Origin: Candidatus Desulfofervidus auxilii | GTDB lineage: Bacteria > Desulfobacterota > Desulfofervidia > Desulfofervidales > Desulfofervidaceae | Direction: 5' to 3' | Length of the DNA: 64,000 nt | Assembly (NCBI RefSeq): GCF_001577525.1 | Contig: NZ_CP013015.1 | Span: 1,619,667 to 1,683,666 of the forward strand | Shown here: positions 21,758 to 62,389 of the stretch, one piece after another | How positions within the stretch are numbered: position 1 is the stretch's first letter | How the letters are laid out: the number at the start of each line of letters is the position of its first letter | Position numbers and translations under genes: made by a program | Notes under the pieces: generated by a model | Database searches by the model: none | The model's input: only the letters and a program-made list of their open reading frames with translations | Told to the model about the DNA's origin: nothing

Positions 21758-22917
21758 GGCATTTAACCAAAATAGTAAGTGTGGTGGGGGCAAGACCCAA
21801 TTTCATGAAGATTGCCCCTATTATTGAACAGTTAAAAATTAAGAATAAAAATTTAAAAGCAGAGTTAAAGCATGTACTAGTCCATACCGGACAACATTAT
21901 GATGAAGAAATGTCAAAGTCTTTTTTTGAAGATTTAAATTTACCTAAACCTGATATAAACTTAGGTGTAGGTTCAGCCTCCCATGCAGTGCAAACGGCTA
22001 AGATTATGATCGAATTTGAGAAGGTCTGTTTAAGAGAAAGACCAGATTTAATTATCGTAGTGGGTGATGTAAACTCAACAATTGCCTGTGCCCTAGTGGC
22101 CTCTAAATTAGGGATTAAAATAGCCCATATTGAAGCAGGTCTTAGAAGTTTTGATAGAGCTATGCCAGAAGAGATTAATAGAGTGCTTACAGATGCTATA
22201 TCAGATTACCTTTTTACCACCTGTGAGGATGCCAATGAAAATTTAAGGAAAGAGGGAATCCCTGAAGAAAAGATATATTTTGTAGGAAATGTAATGATCG
22301 ATACACTTTTAAGATATAAGGAAAGGGCCAAAAAATCAAAGATATTGGAAAAATTGGGTTTAAACAAAGATTTACAAGTAAGGTCATATGCTTTGCTAAC
22401 TCTACACCGACCAAGTAATGTGGATAATAGGGAGACTTTTATAAATATTTTAAAAGCATTAAAAAATGTTTCAAAAAAAATTCCCATAATATTTCCTGCC
22501 CATCCCAGAACACAAAGGCAGATAAAAAGTTTTGGCTTGGAAAAATATTTCAATTTTGTGAACATTGAATCAAATAGTTGTGTTAACATCGAAAATTCAA
22601 TAAATTTGCTAGATCCTCTATCTTACCTTGATTTTTTAAATCTTATGGCCAATGCTAAATTTGTTTTAACAGATTCTGGAGGAATTCAGGAAGAAACTAC
22701 AATTCTCAATATTCCATGCTTAACTCTCCGTGAAAATACAGAAAGACCTGTTACATTAAAAGAAGGGACTAATACAATTGTAGGAAGCAATCCTGAAAAA
22801 ATTATTTCAAAAAGTATGGATATTTTAAATGGTAAGAAGAAAATAGGTAGAATTCCCAAGTTGTGGGATGGAAAGGCAGCAGAGAGGATTATAAACATTC
22901 TTATTGAGAAATTATGA
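21754..22917 (+). CDS. wecB: UDP-N-acetylglucosamine 2-epimerase, non-hydrolysing
   Basis: The protein of about 387 residues shows VVGARPNFMKIAPI at the start, VHTGQHYDEEMS, VVGDVNST, HIEAGLRSFDRAMPEEINR and DSGGIQEE, the full signature of WecB. It interconverts UDP-GlcNAc and UDP-ManNAc in the cytoplasm. I prefer ATG 21754 over TTG 21748 because it overlaps the preceding stop as ATGA, the pattern used throughout this operon. Its product is the expected donor precursor for the WecG-type transferase encoded upstream. Confidence 0.95.
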   Translation: MRHLTKIVSVVGARPNFMKIAPIIEQLKIKNKNLKAELKHVLVHTGQHYDEEMSKSFFEDLNLPKPDINLGVGSASHAVQTAKIMIEFEKVCLRERPDLIIVVGDVNSTIACALVASKLGIKIAHIEAGLRSFDRAMPEEINRVLTDAISDYLFTTCEDANENLRKEGIPEEKIYFVGNVMIDTLLRYKERAKKSKILEKLGLNKDLQVRSYALLTLHRPSNVDNRETFINILKALKNVSKKIPIIFPAHPRTQRQIKSFGLEKYFNFVNIESNSCVNIENSINLLDPLSYLDFLNLMANAKFVLTDSGGIQEETTILNIPCLTLRENTERPVTLKEGTNTIVGSNPEKIISKSMDILNGKKKIGRIPKLWDGKAAERIINILIEKL

Positions 22918-24470
22918 AATTGATCTCATTTGCTAAAAAAAATGTGGTTAATCTGATTATAATAGCTGTTTATGTAATTTTGCTTACGTCACTTTATTAT
23001 TCAACCTTTTCATGGATGATTTATCGCTGGTATAGTAGTTCAGATTATAATTATTGTTTTTTAATTCCATTATTAGTCATTTATCTTATATGGGAAAAGC
23101 GAAAGGAGCTCAGTTATACACCTTCATATCCTTCTAGCTACGGTTTTTTACCACTTATATGCGGGATCATTCTTTTCTCTCTGGGAGAACTAGCAGGAGA
23201 ATATTACACTCTCTATATATCTTTTTGGTTGGTAATTGTTGGTCTCATTTGGATTCATTTAGGATGGAAGAAAATGAAAATTATCTCTTTTGCTCTAATT
23301 ATGATTTTAACAATGTTTCCTATTCCTGATTTTTTATATAACAATATTTCTGCTAGATTGCAACTCATTTCTTCTAAATTGGGAGTGGTCATGATGCAGA
23401 TTTTTGGTATTTCCGTTTACAGAGAGGGAAATATAATTAACTTGGGATTTACTAAGCTTCAAGTTGTAGAGGCCTGTAGCGGGCTTAGATATGTCATTCC
23501 CTTAATGGTATTGGGGTTAATTTGTACTTATTTTTTAAAAGGAAAATTGTGGAAAAAAATATTTATATTTTTCTCTACAATTCCTATTGCCATTTTGGCT
23601 AATGGTTTTCGAATTGGTATTACTGGAATTTTGTCAGAAATATACGGCCCAAAAGTAGCAGAGAGTTTTTTTCATGGTTTTTCTGGATGGTTTATTTTTA
23701 TGTTTGGTCTGGGAATTCTCTTATTAGAAATGCGACTATTGGGAAAATGGAAAACAAATAGAGTAAAAGGCTATAGGTCGAGAGAAAATATTTTTTTGCA
23801 AGAAAAAAAGAAAAAATCTTGGAATTATCATTTCTTAGGAGCAGTTACGCTTTTGGGAATAACCTTGACAATTTTTCAAGGTGTTGAATTTCGAGAAAAG
23901 ATCCCATCCCTAAAACCACTATCTCAGTTTCCTTTACAGATAGGGCAATGGGAAGGAACTCCTAAAACAATGGAACAAAAGTTCATTGATGCATTGGATT
24001 TAAGTGATTATGTCATAATCGATTTTTTAGATAAACAGAAAAGGCTGATTAATTTTTATGTTGCCTATTATGAAAGTCAAAGAAAAGGGAAATCAATTCA
24101 TTCGCCGGCCACTTGCCTGCCTGGAAGTGGCTGGTTCTTTAGAAAAGCAGGTGCTATAATTATTCCAGTCCCGGCGCATGGTGGCTCAATACGGGTTAAT
24201 CGAGCCTTAATGGAAAAAATAGGGCAAAAGCAGCTTTGCTATTATTGGTTTTCCCAGAGGGGAAGGATTCTTACAAATGCCTATCAGCTTAAAATTTTTG
24301 TCTTTTGGGATGCACTAACCAAGCATCGCACTGAGGGGGCATTAGTGAGGGTAATAAGCCCTGTATATAAAGGTGAAGATATTAAAGATGTAGATAAAAG
24401 ACTTCAGGATTTTATCAAGGAAGTCTTTCCTATCCTCGAAGAATTTATTCCAGGAAAGAAGTTGAGCTGA
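22914..24470 (+). CDS. Exosortase fused to EpsI (DUF3485) domain
   Basis: The 518-residue protein is a fusion. Residues 1 to about 280 form a polytopic exosortase with the catalytic set Cys188 (VVEACSGLR), Arg233 (ANGFRIG) and His254 (FHGFSGWF). Residues about 300-518 form an EpsI/DUF3485 domain (FPLQIGQWEGTP, then HSPATCLPGSGW). Exosortases are membrane transpeptidases that process PEP-CTERM-type C-terminal sorting signals and co-occur with exopolysaccharide loci, as here. EpsI-type fusions are typical of the XrtA/EpsH lineage. It overlaps wecB by 4 bases. I saw no PEP-CTERM substrate in the window. Confidence 0.93.
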   Translation: MKLISFAKKNVVNLIIIAVYVILLTSLYYSTFSWMIYRWYSSSDYNYCFLIPLLVIYLIWEKRKELSYTPSYPSSYGFLPLICGIILFSLGELAGEYYTLYISFWLVIVGLIWIHLGWKKMKIISFALIMILTMFPIPDFLYNNISARLQLISSKLGVVMMQIFGISVYREGNIINLGFTKLQVVEACSGLRYVIPLMVLGLICTYFLKGKLWKKIFIFFSTIPIAILANGFRIGITGILSEIYGPKVAESFFHGFSGWFIFMFGLGILLLEMRLLGKWKTNRVKGYRSRENIFLQEKKKKSWNYHFLGAVTLLGITLTIFQGVEFREKIPSLKPLSQFPLQIGQWEGTPKTMEQKFIDALDLSDYVIIDFLDKQKRLINFYVAYYESQRKGKSIHSPATCLPGSGWFFRKAGAIIIPVPAHGGSIRVNRALMEKIGQKQLCYYWFSQRGRILTNAYQLKIFVFWDALTKHRTEGALVRVISPVYKGEDIKDVDKRLQDFIKEVFPILEEFIPGKKLS

Positions 24471-24507: not shown

Positions 24508-26646
24508 TTACTCTGTAACATTGACTACTATACTATCACAATATAGGCTATCCCAAGTAATATTATTATCCATATTAGTATCAATACAAAAGTAAAATGT
24601 GTATGTTCCTGCCGGAAGTCCTGAAATAGGCATGTTTAACACCTCAAATGAATCCAAATTAAATAAAGGACCTTGATATCCTGGCACCCAATCAGTTGTC
24701 CAGCCTTCAAATGTAAAAAAGTAAAGACCAAATGGGGTTTCTTTTACCAGCCACCAGTCGGCATTGTCTATTACCCCATTATTCTTTAGGGATACAGTAA
24801 GAGTTAATGTGTCTGCTTGCCTCAACGTAATTGGGCTATCTGAACCATTCGCTAATATTTCAGGGGTAGGGTTGGAAGAGGATTGCGAATATACATGAAT
24901 CTCGGTATGATTTAATTCTGAATATTCATAAGCTCCGATATCAGGAGCGTAGTCCACAGGATTTCCCTCCATGTCTTCAGTCAGGCCAACATCTGTTCCT
25001 TTGTTAATGCAAAGTGAGTTAAATTGGAGATGGAAATTCCCATTTGGGGCATCAATAAATAATGGAGTCTGGGCTATAGAGTTTGCATCTTGATTTTTTT
25101 TATTTTGATAAGTTGAAAATTGAGCAATTGTATAAGTATTACTGTCCCATTTAATTAGCACTCCACTTGAACAAAAATAATCATTATAATCTAAAACTAA
25201 ATTAGGAAGAGAACCTGCAATAGAAACACGTAATTCATAACCTTCATTATTTGCTATAATATTATTCTTGATATAAATAGGAGCATCATTAGTAACATCA
25301 TATATTTGCCTAATAACTAATCCTCCATTCTTTGTATCATTCGTTGAATTTTGAGAATTACCAACAATAGTATTATTATATATTTTGAGATTATCTAGTG
25401 CTTGATAGTTATGAATATAAACAATTAATCCTCCAAAAGAACCATCATCACTTTGAGATTTCCAGCCATTGTTGTAAATAAGATTATAATAAATTTCTGT
25501 ATCTTGTCCTAAATTATACTGTTGTGGTCCTCCATCAGCAATCATTATTCCTACTTTAGCATTATCATGAATTTTATTATATTTTGCTATACAGTGGTCA
25601 CAACCATAGAAGAATAGACCACAACTATTACAATCTGCTATATCGTTTCCTACATTATAAACATCACACCATTCTACAGTAATATACGAATTTCCATAAT
25701 TACCACCTATAGCAATTCCCTCTCTATCTACCCATGATGCATTATCCCATGGAAGATTTCCTATATCATGAACCTTACAGTTTGAAATTTTTATATGGGA
25801 ACAGTTTTTACTACACCCTATCCCATGAGCTCTTGCCCAAGCAACTTCTGAATTAGTTATATTAGAATTACTTGATGCCTTAAAAGTTATTCCTTTAAGA
25901 CTAGAGTAGAAAGATACACAATTATCTAGATTTACATGTGCTGAATCTTCAACGTGAACTAAACTTGAAGGAATTGCATTGTCATCAAACGCATTTGAAC
26001 CTTCAAACCTGAGATTTTCTATATTTATCCATGATTTATTTTCTATCCTAAGTGCAGCATTCCTCCATCCATATTCAATTTTATATTCACTGGGATGATG
26101 ACCTACTGGTGGCTTATAATATATTCTCCCTTGATAATGAGTCCATTGGTCATCTTTTAAATTGAAACGCTGAGAAGATGACACTTTCTCAAGAATTTCA
26201 CCATCTTTAATTAAGATTCGCACAAGACCATCAGCATCCTCAGGAGGATTTCCAACATATATAGAATATTCATCGTTAGATTCATTCGGTGGATCTGTCC
26301 AACCCTCAGCTACCTCTGCTGCTGATATAATTGGCTTTTCCCCTTCTCCATAAGCCCCAAAAGTGATGGGATTTCCCTCTTCGCCAGAAGAAGGAATAAT
26401 GAGTTGCTCACGCCAGATCTCTCCCCTCTTAAATAGGATAGTATCTCCTGGTTTAAAATCCATACTGTTAACCTTGCCTATGGTTTTCCAGGCAGTTTCA
26501 GGAGAAAGCCCATCGTTAAAATCATTCCCATTGGTAGCATCTACATAATAAGTGGTTGCATAAGCTGGAAGAGAAACATTAGTTAAGCTTAGCAAAACAA
26601 ATAGAGAAATGGCCAGGCATGAGAGAATAAGCCTGTTTTTGGCCAC
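24508..26646 (-). CDS. Secreted parallel beta-helix protein under c-di-GMP riboswitch
   Basis: The 712-residue protein has a signal peptide ending about SLPAYA. It then shows TTYYVDATNGNDFNDGLSP and AWKTIGKVNSMDFKPGDTI, the classic start of DUF1565/right-handed parallel beta-helix proteins. Repeated N-rich rungs follow (IKISNCKVHDIGN, AKYNKIHDNAKVGIMIADGG) and a C-terminal beta-sandwich-like module of about 130 residues. The start is GTG 26646 preceded by AAGGAGGTG. It would be exported and bind or cleave polysaccharide. No PEP-CTERM tail is present; the end is VVNVTE. A remnant paralogous C-terminus lies at 5394-5501. A c-di-GMP-I riboswitch sits in its leader. Confidence 0.85.
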   Translation of the reverse strand: MAKNRLILSCLAISLFVLLSLTNVSLPAYATTYYVDATNGNDFNDGLSPETAWKTIGKVNSMDFKPGDTILFKRGEIWREQLIIPSSGEEGNPITFGAYGEGEKPIISAAEVAEGWTDPPNESNDEYSIYVGNPPEDADGLVRILIKDGEILEKVSSSQRFNLKDDQWTHYQGRIYYKPPVGHHPSEYKIEYGWRNAALRIENKSWINIENLRFEGSNAFDDNAIPSSLVHVEDSAHVNLDNCVSFYSSLKGITFKASSNSNITNSEVAWARAHGIGCSKNCSHIKISNCKVHDIGNLPWDNASWVDREGIAIGGNYGNSYITVEWCDVYNVGNDIADCNSCGLFFYGCDHCIAKYNKIHDNAKVGIMIADGGPQQYNLGQDTEIYYNLIYNNGWKSQSDDGSFGGLIVYIHNYQALDNLKIYNNTIVGNSQNSTNDTKNGGLVIRQIYDVTNDAPIYIKNNIIANNEGYELRVSIAGSLPNLVLDYNDYFCSSGVLIKWDSNTYTIAQFSTYQNKKNQDANSIAQTPLFIDAPNGNFHLQFNSLCINKGTDVGLTEDMEGNPVDYAPDIGAYEYSELNHTEIHVYSQSSSNPTPEILANGSDSPITLRQADTLTLTVSLKNNGVIDNADWWLVKETPFGLYFFTFEGWTTDWVPGYQGPLFNLDSFEVLNMPISGLPAGTYTFYFCIDTNMDNNITWDSLYCDSIVVNVTE

Positions 26647-26720: not shown

Positions 26721-26817
26721 TCGTCCGGCAGACCCGCTACCATGTCCTACAAAGTAGGATTTAGGCCGGTGCCTTTGCGTCCTGCCCTTTCGGACAGTTT
26801 GCCTTTTTCGGACGCTT
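26721..26817 (-). promoter_or_regulatory. Cyclic di-GMP-I (GEMM) riboswitch
   Basis: Read on the minus strand, the leader of the beta-helix gene shows the GEMM-I core. A P1 stem CGTCCG/CGGACG encloses GGCAAAC, then GACGCAAAGGCACCGGCCT, a hairpin ATCCTAC/GTAGGAC, and ATGGTAGCGGGTCTGCC. The CGCAAAG, CACCGG, CCTAA and ATGGTAGC blocks match the two-helix three-way junction that binds c-di-GMP. Between it and the GTG start are hairpins GAAGTG/CACTTC and TGCAC...GTGCA close to the ribosome site, a plausible expression platform. Whether ligand turns expression on or off cannot be told. Confidence 0.85.
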
Positions 26818-26900: not shown

Positions 26901-26929
26901 TTGAAAAAAGGAAAAATTTATGATATAAT
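26901..26929 (+). promoter_or_regulatory. Sigma-70-type promoter for the PrsR-like regulator
   Basis: TTGAAA (26901-26906), a 17-base spacer and a perfect TATAAT (26924-26929) lie 36 bases before the ATG at 26965. It is one of the best promoter matches in the window, and it faces away from the divergent riboswitch-controlled gene. Confidence 0.6.
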
Positions 26930-26964
26930 TGACAAAAATGTAATTGGAGTTTTAAAATTGTAAT

Positions 26965-28323
26965 ATGGCTAGATTTTTAATTGCTGCGGAGGAGTTGGCT
27001 TTAAAAAATTTATTAAACAATACCTTAGGAAGAGGAAATATTCTTGAATTTTGTCCTGACGAACCTAGCATACTGGAAAGACTAAAAAGTATAAATTATG
27101 ACTTGATTGTTATAGATATGGAATTGAAAAATGGGGATGGGATGAAGTTATTAGAATCTACAAAATCTATGGCACCAACTACTCCTATAATTGTCATTGG
27201 TCACAATCGCACGGAACGGGTAGTAGAGACAATTAAAAAGGGTGCTTATGATTTTATAGCAAAACCTGCCTCTGGTGAAAAGATAAAAAATACCATTGAG
27301 AAAGCCTTAGAAAACCAAAGTCTTAAATATGAAATTGATTATTTAAGGCGGCAACAAGATGTTATCTATGACCTTAATAGAATCATTGCCAAAAGTCCTT
27401 CCATGAAGAGGATAATTAGTATTATAAGAAAGGTATGTAAAACAAATTCTACTATTTTGATGACCGGAGAAACTGGGACAGGAAAGAGTTTTCTGGCCGG
27501 AGCAATTCATTTTAATAGTCATCGCAAAAAAGGTCCATTTGTGGAAATCAATTGTGCTAATATTCCTGAAACCTTATTAGAGAGTGAATTGTTTGGACAT
27601 GAAAAAGGGACATTTACAGGGGCTACAAAAACTAGGATAGGCAGGTTTGAGCAAGCAAATAAAGGAACTGTCCTTTTAGATGAAATAGGAGACCTACCTT
27701 TTGCCTTACAAGCAAAGCTACTCCGCTTTTTAGAAGAAAGGGTTTTTGAAAGACTAGGAGGGAATAAAACTATTTATTCTGATGTTCGGGTTATAGCCAC
27801 TACAAATAAGAGCCTGGAAGAAGAAATTCAAAAAGGAAGGTTTAGAGAAGACCTTTATTACCGGATTAATGTAATAAATCTCCATTTACCTCCTTTGAAG
27901 GAACGAATAGAAGACATAGAAGGTTTGGCCCTGTATTTTTTAAAAAAACACTCCCGAAATATAAAAAAACATGTTGAAGGATTTCACCCAGAGGTATTGG
28001 AGATGTTTAAGCATTATCATTGGCCAGGTAACCTTCGCGAGCTTTCCAATGTTATAGAGAGGGCTGTCTTACTTACTGAAGACAAAATAATTCAAAAAGA
28101 CAGTATAAAATTGGGGAAGGATAACTATACTGAGCTTCCTAAAAGTATATCTTCGTCTCAATCTTTATTGGATATAGAGAGAAAAACAATAATAGATGCA
28201 CTAGATAAATCCATGTGGATTCAAAAGCTCGCTGCTAAGAGATTAGGTATATCCAGAAGGGTATTGAATTACAAAATCAAAAAACTAGGTATTAAGCATC
28301 CACGGTGGAGAAAAAATGTCTAA
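26965..28323 (+). CDS. NtrC-family response regulator, PEP-CTERM/exosortase-associated type (PrsR-like)
   Basis: The 452-residue regulator has a receiver (residues 1 to about 120; phosphoacceptor Asp51 in VIDMELKNGDG, Lys100 in FIAKPAS). A sigma-54 AAA+ domain follows (Walker A GETGTGKS at 168-175; the GAFTGA loop reads GTFTGA at 215-220; LLDEIGDL near 237). A Fis-type HTH ends the protein (AAKRLGISRRVLNYKIKKLG). It would activate sigma-54 promoters. PrsR-type regulators control exosortase/PEP-CTERM and exopolysaccharide genes, and its position beside the exosortase gene supports this. The usual partner kinase PrsK is absent from the window. The Ala-to-Thr change in the loop is a natural variant whose effect is unknown. 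Confidence 0.9.
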   Translation: MARFLIAAEELALKNLLNNTLGRGNILEFCPDEPSILERLKSINYDLIVIDMELKNGDGMKLLESTKSMAPTTPIIVIGHNRTERVVETIKKGAYDFIAKPASGEKIKNTIEKALENQSLKYEIDYLRRQQDVIYDLNRIIAKSPSMKRIISIIRKVCKTNSTILMTGETGTGKSFLAGAIHFNSHRKKGPFVEINCANIPETLLESELFGHEKGTFTGATKTRIGRFEQANKGTVLLDEIGDLPFALQAKLLRFLEERVFERLGGNKTIYSDVRVIATTNKSLEEEIQKGRFREDLYYRINVINLHLPPLKERIEDIEGLALYFLKKHSRNIKKHVEGFHPEVLEMFKHYHWPGNLRELSNVIERAVLLTEDKIIQKDSIKLGKDNYTELPKSISSSQSLLDIERKTIIDALDKSMWIQKLAAKRLGISRRVLNYKIKKLGIKHPRWRKNV

Positions 28324-61498: not shown

Positions 61499-62389
61499 AT
61501 GTTTGCATCAAGCTCCAAGGTAGTTCTTGCTGAAGACAATGAAAGCATCGCTAAATTACTTTTGCTTATCTTAGAAGACCACAATTTTGAGACAAAATGG
61601 GTTTTTTTAGGAAATAAGGTAATCACTGCCTGTCTTGAAAAAATCCCTGATTTAATTATTTTAGACCCAATTCTGCCAGACAAGGACGGTTTCGAGTTAT
61701 TGAAAGAGGTAAAAAATCATATAATCTTACGTGAAATACCCATTGTTCTCATTTTAAACGAAGACAAACAAAAGGGGCGTTTTTTGCACTTTTCCCCTTT
61801 GGATATTTTAGTCAAGCCTGTGAATTTAAATGAACTTTCTTTAAAAATCAAAAATTGGGTTGGGGTTTTAGAAAATCAAAAAACCTTAAAGAAAAAGGCT
61901 ATGACCGATGCCTTAACAGGCTTACTGAATGACCTTGCCCTAGAAAAGGAGTTGACTATTGCCTGTTATTATGCTGAGAAATTTGGAAAAAACTTTTCTA
62001 CCCTTATGATTGATATTGATTACTTTACTAAATATAACAACATTTACGGACATCGGTTTGGAGATAGTTTGCTTCAAACTCTGGCTGTTTTCTGGAAAGG
62101 TGCCCTCCGTCCTACTGATGCTATATTCCGATATAAGGGTCCATCCTTCGTAGCTATCTTGCAAGATACACCTTTAGAACAAGGGATAAACGCTGCCGAG
62201 AGGTTGCGTCGCATCACTTATGAAAGGAGTTTACCCCATCAGCAGGGACTCAACAACGTTGTTACTATTAGTATCGGAGTCACCGCTTTTAAGAAAGGCG
62301 ATACTCCAGGCATAATCTTACATAGGGCTGCTAGTTACTTAACCAAAGCGAAAAAGTCGGGTAGAAATGTGGTAAAATCAGGAATATAA
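61499..62389 (+). CDS. Response regulator with degenerate GGDEF domain
   Basis: The 296-residue protein has a receiver (acidic pocket AEDNES at 11-16, phosphoacceptor Asp56 in LIILDPILPDKDG, Lys106 in ILVKPVN) and a GGDEF domain from about residue 130 (KAMTDALTGLLND, LMIDIDYFTKYN, HRFGDSLLQ). The signature loop reads RYKGPSF (211-217) instead of RYGGDEF, so diguanylate cyclase activity is unlikely. The metal site Asp172 is kept. It may bind GTP or interact with partners as an inactive c-di-GMP module. It starts just after the atpE terminator and converges with uvrA. Confidence 0.88.
   Translation: MFASSSKVVLAEDNESIAKLLLLILEDHNFETKWVFLGNKVITACLEKIPDLIILDPILPDKDGFELLKEVKNHIILREIPIVLILNEDKQKGRFLHFSPLDILVKPVNLNELSLKIKNWVGVLENQKTLKKKAMTDALTGLLNDLALEKELTIACYYAEKFGKNFSTLMIDIDYFTKYNNIYGHRFGDSLLQTLAVFWKGALRPTDAIFRYKGPSFVAILQDTPLEQGINAAERLRRITYERSLPHQQGLNNVVTISIGVTAFKKGDTPGIILHRAASYLTKAKKSGRNVVKSGI

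Follow-up and report, generated by a model that had tools for sequence, protein, structure and literature searches.

The 64,000-nucleotide stretch analysed here (the window) belongs to the single-contig genome of Candidatus Desulfofervidus auxilii (2,540,211 bases). On its minus strand, positions 26646-24508 encode a 712-residue secreted protein with a GTG start codon, a signal peptide and a right-handed β-helix (PF13229, E = 9.4e-13). The N-terminal part of this protein is similar to a lacto-N-biosidase region. Residues 591-712 (24508-24876, minus strand) form a C-terminal module of about 120 residues, which has no Pfam match and is possibly an anchoring or secretion domain. Single-sequence structure prediction of the β-helix protein was poor (pLDDT 42.5). 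Four other proteins of the genome contain the C-terminal module at about 60-68% identity and a fifth at 32%; it is also present in many genomes of the phylum, joined to unrelated N-terminal parts.

An exopolysaccharide (EPS) cluster ends next to the β-helix gene with an exosortase-EpsI fusion of the XrtD/VPLPA type (22914-24470, plus strand; TIGR04152, 572 bits). No relatives of the β-helix protein or of the exosortase were found in the genome contigs scanned. The earlier note on this DNA had described the β-helix gene as divergent from the exosortase locus, but the two genes are convergent, ending at 24508 and 24470, respectively, and the divergent neighbour is a response regulator gene at 26965-28323. 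The β-helix protein ends in ...CDSIVVNVTE, and no exosortase sorting signal (motif, hydrophobic segment or basic tail) was found on it; its link to the exosortase is therefore one of proximity only. What holds of the suggestion that c-di-GMP is tied to a surface protein beside an exosortase is the riboswitch on a secreted β-helix gene, not a functional role of the exosortase.

The leader of the β-helix gene contains a c-di-GMP-I (GEMM-I) aptamer (26812-26723, minus strand) on the same strand as the gene, 76 nucleotides before the GTG codon at 26646. It is the lone aptamer reported by Rfam within the window, matching RF03167 (c-di-GMP-I-GGC) with 71 bits (E = 8.1e-15); a whole-genome search with RF01051 finds the same site with 80.4 bits (E = 3.1e-16). 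Both scores are above the gathering thresholds of 59 and 35 bits, respectively. The P1 helix CGTCCG/CGGACG (26814-26809 and 26727-26722) is present in the predicted fold, and the aptamer also has a GAAA tetraloop and a CCUAAA...CAUGG receptor-like segment. Its core is intact, and its score is near the top among the c-di-GMP-I aptamers of the phylum. The aptamer is real; as a riboswitch it is ordinary and well supported, belonging to a known class. The earlier note had reached this assignment from GEMM-I motifs, all of which we found on the minus strand, and had named an RF01051 covariance search as a check; the RF01051 score and the PF13229 match bear out its proposal of a c-di-GMP-I riboswitch on a secreted β-helix gene.

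The top Rfam match by E-value is c-di-GMP-I-GGC, which could be taken to point to a ligand other than c-di-GMP, either cGAMP or some further compound. We consider this very unlikely, given that RF01051 scores higher in bits and that the residues at positions 47 and 20 are not those of the variants. The ligand-contacting residues G20, A47 and C92, identified in the alignment and set against those of 31 other aptamers, are all canonical, and the expected ligand is therefore c-di-GMP, not cGAMP. In Vc2 numbering, the canonical class has A at position 47. In the RF03167 alignment, the window has A at this position, in GACGCAAA, where the consensus of the GGC model, GACGCGAA, has G. Because A47 is present, the aptamer is not classed as a GGC variant despite an RF03167 score above gathering, and we rejected the GGC label, misleading here, as a sign of altered specificity. 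Position 20 is G and not A, as it would be in a GEMM-Ib aptamer; the G20A change favours cGAMP, and G20A/C92U permits c-di-AMP (PMC7288161). Two related aptamers of the phylum (L022 and L027) carry A20; the window aptamer does not. An unusual GGCAC in the core had been suspected of affecting ligand choice, but in the predicted fold it sits in P3, outside the ligand pocket, and its 3' strand still pairs, with one G-U; the suspicion is not supported.

Upstream of the aptamer, at 26846-26831 on the minus strand, is a -24/-12 sequence (TGGCACGAAATTTGCT, TGGCACG-AAAT-TTGCT) that matches the sigma-54 consensus TGGCACN5TTGCW exactly and contains GG-N10-GC within it. A scan of the window found no other exact match, and the site had been overlooked in the earlier note. 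Nine exact matches occur genome-wide, against none for a reversed control pattern, and the genome contains rpoN. Among the others, one precedes another β-helix protein and one a GGDEF protein of about 205 residues. The site also agrees with the Desulfovibrio vulgaris sigma-54 consensus tGGcacg/tTGCt (PMC4641369). The predicted transcription start, at about 26820, falls just before P1, at the 5' edge of the aptamer. From these features, the β-helix mRNA appears to be transcribed from the sigma-54 promoter. That transcription bypasses the TGGCAC...TTGCT site and starts from a weak sigma-70 promoter instead is quite improbable: the consensus match is exact, the genomic count is nine against none, the distance between promoter and aptamer is correct, and no sigma-70-like site was found on the minus strand at the leader.

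A candidate activator is the product of the divergent gene at 26965-28323 (plus strand), a sigma-54-dependent response regulator with receiver, AAA+ and Fis helix-turn-helix domains according to Pfam; sigma-70-like promoters of its own are located at 26901-26929 and 26929-26958. This regulator resembles PrsR, the PEP-CTERM-box response regulator, but we did not adopt that name, as its TIGR02915 (PEP_resp_reg) score of 398 bits is under the cut-off of 502.6. No convincing inverted repeat that could be an activator site was found upstream of the promoter, and no binding site common to the regions upstream of the nine sigma-54 promoters of the genome was found.

The combination of sigma-54 promoter and c-di-GMP-I aptamer recurs in the phylum. 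We examined 115 c-di-GMP-I aptamers from 79 genomes, counting a promoter where GG-N10-GC and at least nine of 11 consensus positions were present 15-150 nucleotides upstream of the aptamer. Such a promoter precedes 34 of the 115 aptamers (about 30%), spread over 29 of the 79 genomes and 19 families (by family codes), counts that include related and hence non-independent genomes; in 27 of the 34, it is located 28-59 nucleotides before the aptamer. The same pattern was found at none of 30 cobalamin aptamers (Fisher p = 1.6e-4) and once in 115 on the opposite strand; dinucleotide shuffles gave a mean of 0.95, and the background in wider flanks predicts about four against the 34 observed. The pattern was chosen after the first 31 aptamers had been seen, 29 of which are within the 115, whereas the later sets were unseen beforehand; the 60 later regions alone have promoters near the aptamer in 18 cases, compared with three in the next 150 nucleotides upstream. 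We think it reasonably likely that a large share of the c-di-GMP-I riboswitches of the phylum are transcribed from dedicated sigma-54 promoters at the aptamer edge, and that the two together form a standard module by which secreted matrix proteins respond to two inputs (activator-dependent transcription AND/AND-NOT c-di-GMP). A search limited to open-access literature found no earlier description of this coupling, and term searches within PMC4641369 and PMC12316311 did not bring it up either.

An adjacent activator gene was considered as a general feature of these loci and rejected: one is present within about 1.5 kb at three of 52 c-di-GMP-I loci, compared with none of 30 cobalamin loci. As a separate observation, many of the sigma-54-positive aptamers (in L082, L085, L092, L098, L101 and L104) precede secreted proteins that start with a fibronectin-like segment, for example AQVTLAWDPNTEPDLAGYKVYYG.

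Between P1 and the start codon of the β-helix gene lies a 76-nucleotide platform with a folding energy of -38.4 kcal/mol (z = -4.6 relative to dinucleotide shuffles). The hairpins before the GTG codon that had been noted earlier as a possible platform are thus real, and can now be specified: they sequester the Shine-Dalgarno sequence and include an anti-P1 strand. The Shine-Dalgarno sequence itself, a strong AAGGAGG at 26662-26656, lies nine bases 5' of the GTG codon and, with the following UGCCAG (26662-26650), is sequestered in a long hairpin. In the minimum free energy (MFE) ensemble, the outer helix of this hairpin pairs the anti-Shine-Dalgarno strand CUGGCACUUC (26714-26705) with GAGGUGCCAG (26659-26650) with a probability of 0.86-1.0, and GGAGG is buried (unpaired probability 0.01-0.09). 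The 3' strand of P1 with its extension, CCGGACGAAGUG (26728-26717), can alternatively pair with the anti-P1 strand CACUUCGGUCCGG (26690-26678) in a duplex of -19.3 kcal/mol, an energy attained by only 0.05% of shuffles. P1 and anti-P1 pairing are mutually exclusive; P1 and Shine-Dalgarno sequestration coexist in one fold, and the anti-P1 fold is the alternative that loosens the Shine-Dalgarno sequence, leaving it partly free. Folding of growing transcripts, by a nearest-neighbour model that leaves out tertiary contacts and ligand, favours anti-P1 as long as the Shine-Dalgarno sequence has yet to emerge, with a margin of about 9 kcal/mol at 37 °C and 6.7 kcal/mol at 60 °C; the anti-P1 fold is the MFE structure for transcripts ending at about 26676-26666 at 37 °C, and to about 26661 at 60 °C. 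Once the Shine-Dalgarno sequence has been transcribed, P1 and the Shine-Dalgarno hairpin are ahead by 5-9 kcal/mol. The final MFE structure buries the Shine-Dalgarno sequence even without ligand, so that the ON state would depend on kinetics. No terminator was found in the leader, and translation is therefore the likely level of regulation. Four genomes of the same family have neither a c-di-GMP-I aptamer nor a homologous gene; no orthologous leader was found, and the platform pairing consequently stands without covariation support.

Three further c-di-GMP-I aptamers are present in the genome, at 2.096, 2.102 and 2.429 Mb; each of them precedes a giant secreted protein and closely follows a reading frame that we take to be Uma2-like. 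They share with the window switch the aptamer class and the position before secreted proteins, but differ in having C-C/G-G instead of G-C/G-C at two pairs beside G20, a long P3 insert, and terminators overlapping the 3' strand of the aptamer; no sigma-54 promoter was found at any of them. At each locus the aptamer 3' strand, AGCCGGGUUGCC, pairs (-18 to -21 kcal/mol) with a downstream strand that leads into a run of U, so that termination without ligand and expression with ligand are predicted (ON switches). The three loci (L009, 5700-6643; L010, 6190-7019 and 11650-12496) are near-identical cassettes, each before a different giant secreted protein, in the order Uma2-like frame, aptamer with P3 insert, terminator; the cassettes seem to have been duplicated. 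Several large secreted proteins in these regions carry at their C-terminus a dockerin-like repeat and, after it, LVLLCTRPRCATE or a closely similar sequence; this shared tail may be a sorting signal.

For c-di-GMP synthesis, the genome has four GGDEF genes. One of them (L043, 1501-2162) lies directly behind an exact sigma-54 promoter and encodes the small protein of about 205 residues mentioned above, with an intact RIGGDEF motif; through it, the sigma-54 regulon would be tied to c-di-GMP production. A response regulator-GGDEF protein in the window (61499-62389) has RYKGPSF in place of GGDEF and, with this degenerate active site, is probably not a cyclase. A search of the genome for EAL domains found none.

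Taken together, these features suggest a two-input leader that couples sigma-54 transcription to a translational OFF switch, a reading to which we give about an even chance. The sigma-54 promoter would be activated by an enhancer-binding protein, for which the divergent response regulator is a candidate, and the transcript would start right at the 5' edge of the aptamer, which is of the canonical c-di-GMP-I type. As the RNA is made, the anti-P1 strand would emerge ahead of the Shine-Dalgarno sequence. Were c-di-GMP absent, anti-P1 would displace P1 and the resulting hairpin would hold the anti-Shine-Dalgarno strand in its loop, leaving early ribosomes able to initiate; were c-di-GMP bound, P1 would hold, the anti-Shine-Dalgarno strand would pair with the Shine-Dalgarno sequence and translation would be off. 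The layout is thus predicted, from the modelled folds, to be that of a co-transcriptional, translational OFF switch in which the sensor probably hides the ribosome-binding site at high c-di-GMP, and production of the β-helix protein would require an active activator together with low c-di-GMP.

The same aptamer and promoter could instead act as an ON switch in which ligand binding raises translation, for example with the Shine-Dalgarno sequence freed through contacts or kinetics beyond secondary-structure prediction. The ON logic predicted for the other three switches of the genome speaks for this, as does the burial of the Shine-Dalgarno sequence in the final ligand-free structure; we nevertheless regard it as rather unlikely, because P1 is compatible with that burial and it is anti-P1 that loosens it. 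It is also conceivable that the aptamer is a relic, with the hairpin keeping the gene constitutively low and c-di-GMP having no regulatory effect. We judge this improbable. In its favour, the hairpin belongs to the most stable fold overall with no ligand present, and the leader and gene are missing from the four genomes of the same family; against it, the core is intact and scores among the highest in the phylum, the anti-P1 complementarity exceeds what chance would give, and sigma-54 promoters are found before such aptamers repeatedly across the phylum.

Riboswitch control and sigma-54 control are usually studied separately, and the β-helix gene seems to combine the two signals. Should the coupling prove real, it would account for the convergence of c-di-GMP and two-component signalling on shared extracellular genes, and promoters and start sites could be predicted for many riboswitches. 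A feed-forward loop would result if a single activator acts on both the β-helix gene and the diguanylate cyclase gene behind a sigma-54 promoter. With three switches predicted to be ON and one OFF, the genome lends itself to a clean test of how surface proteins are partitioned by c-di-GMP. It is the recurrent sigma-54 coupling, together with this predicted logic opposite to the three siblings, that is noteworthy about the leader.

Compared with known systems, the promoter resembles the sigma-54 regulons of the bacterial exterior (PMC3162934) and of Desulfovibrio vulgaris (PMC4641369), with which it shares the consensus and the association with exopolysaccharide, pili and other exterior genes. 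The riboswitch has in common with those of RF01051 and RF03167 the core, the three-helix architecture, the ligand-contacting residues, the tetraloop-receptor and the location in the leader of a gene for a secreted or surface protein; it differs from them in its sigma-54 promoter and in having a platform, predicted to turn translation OFF, in which the anti-P1 strand is separate.
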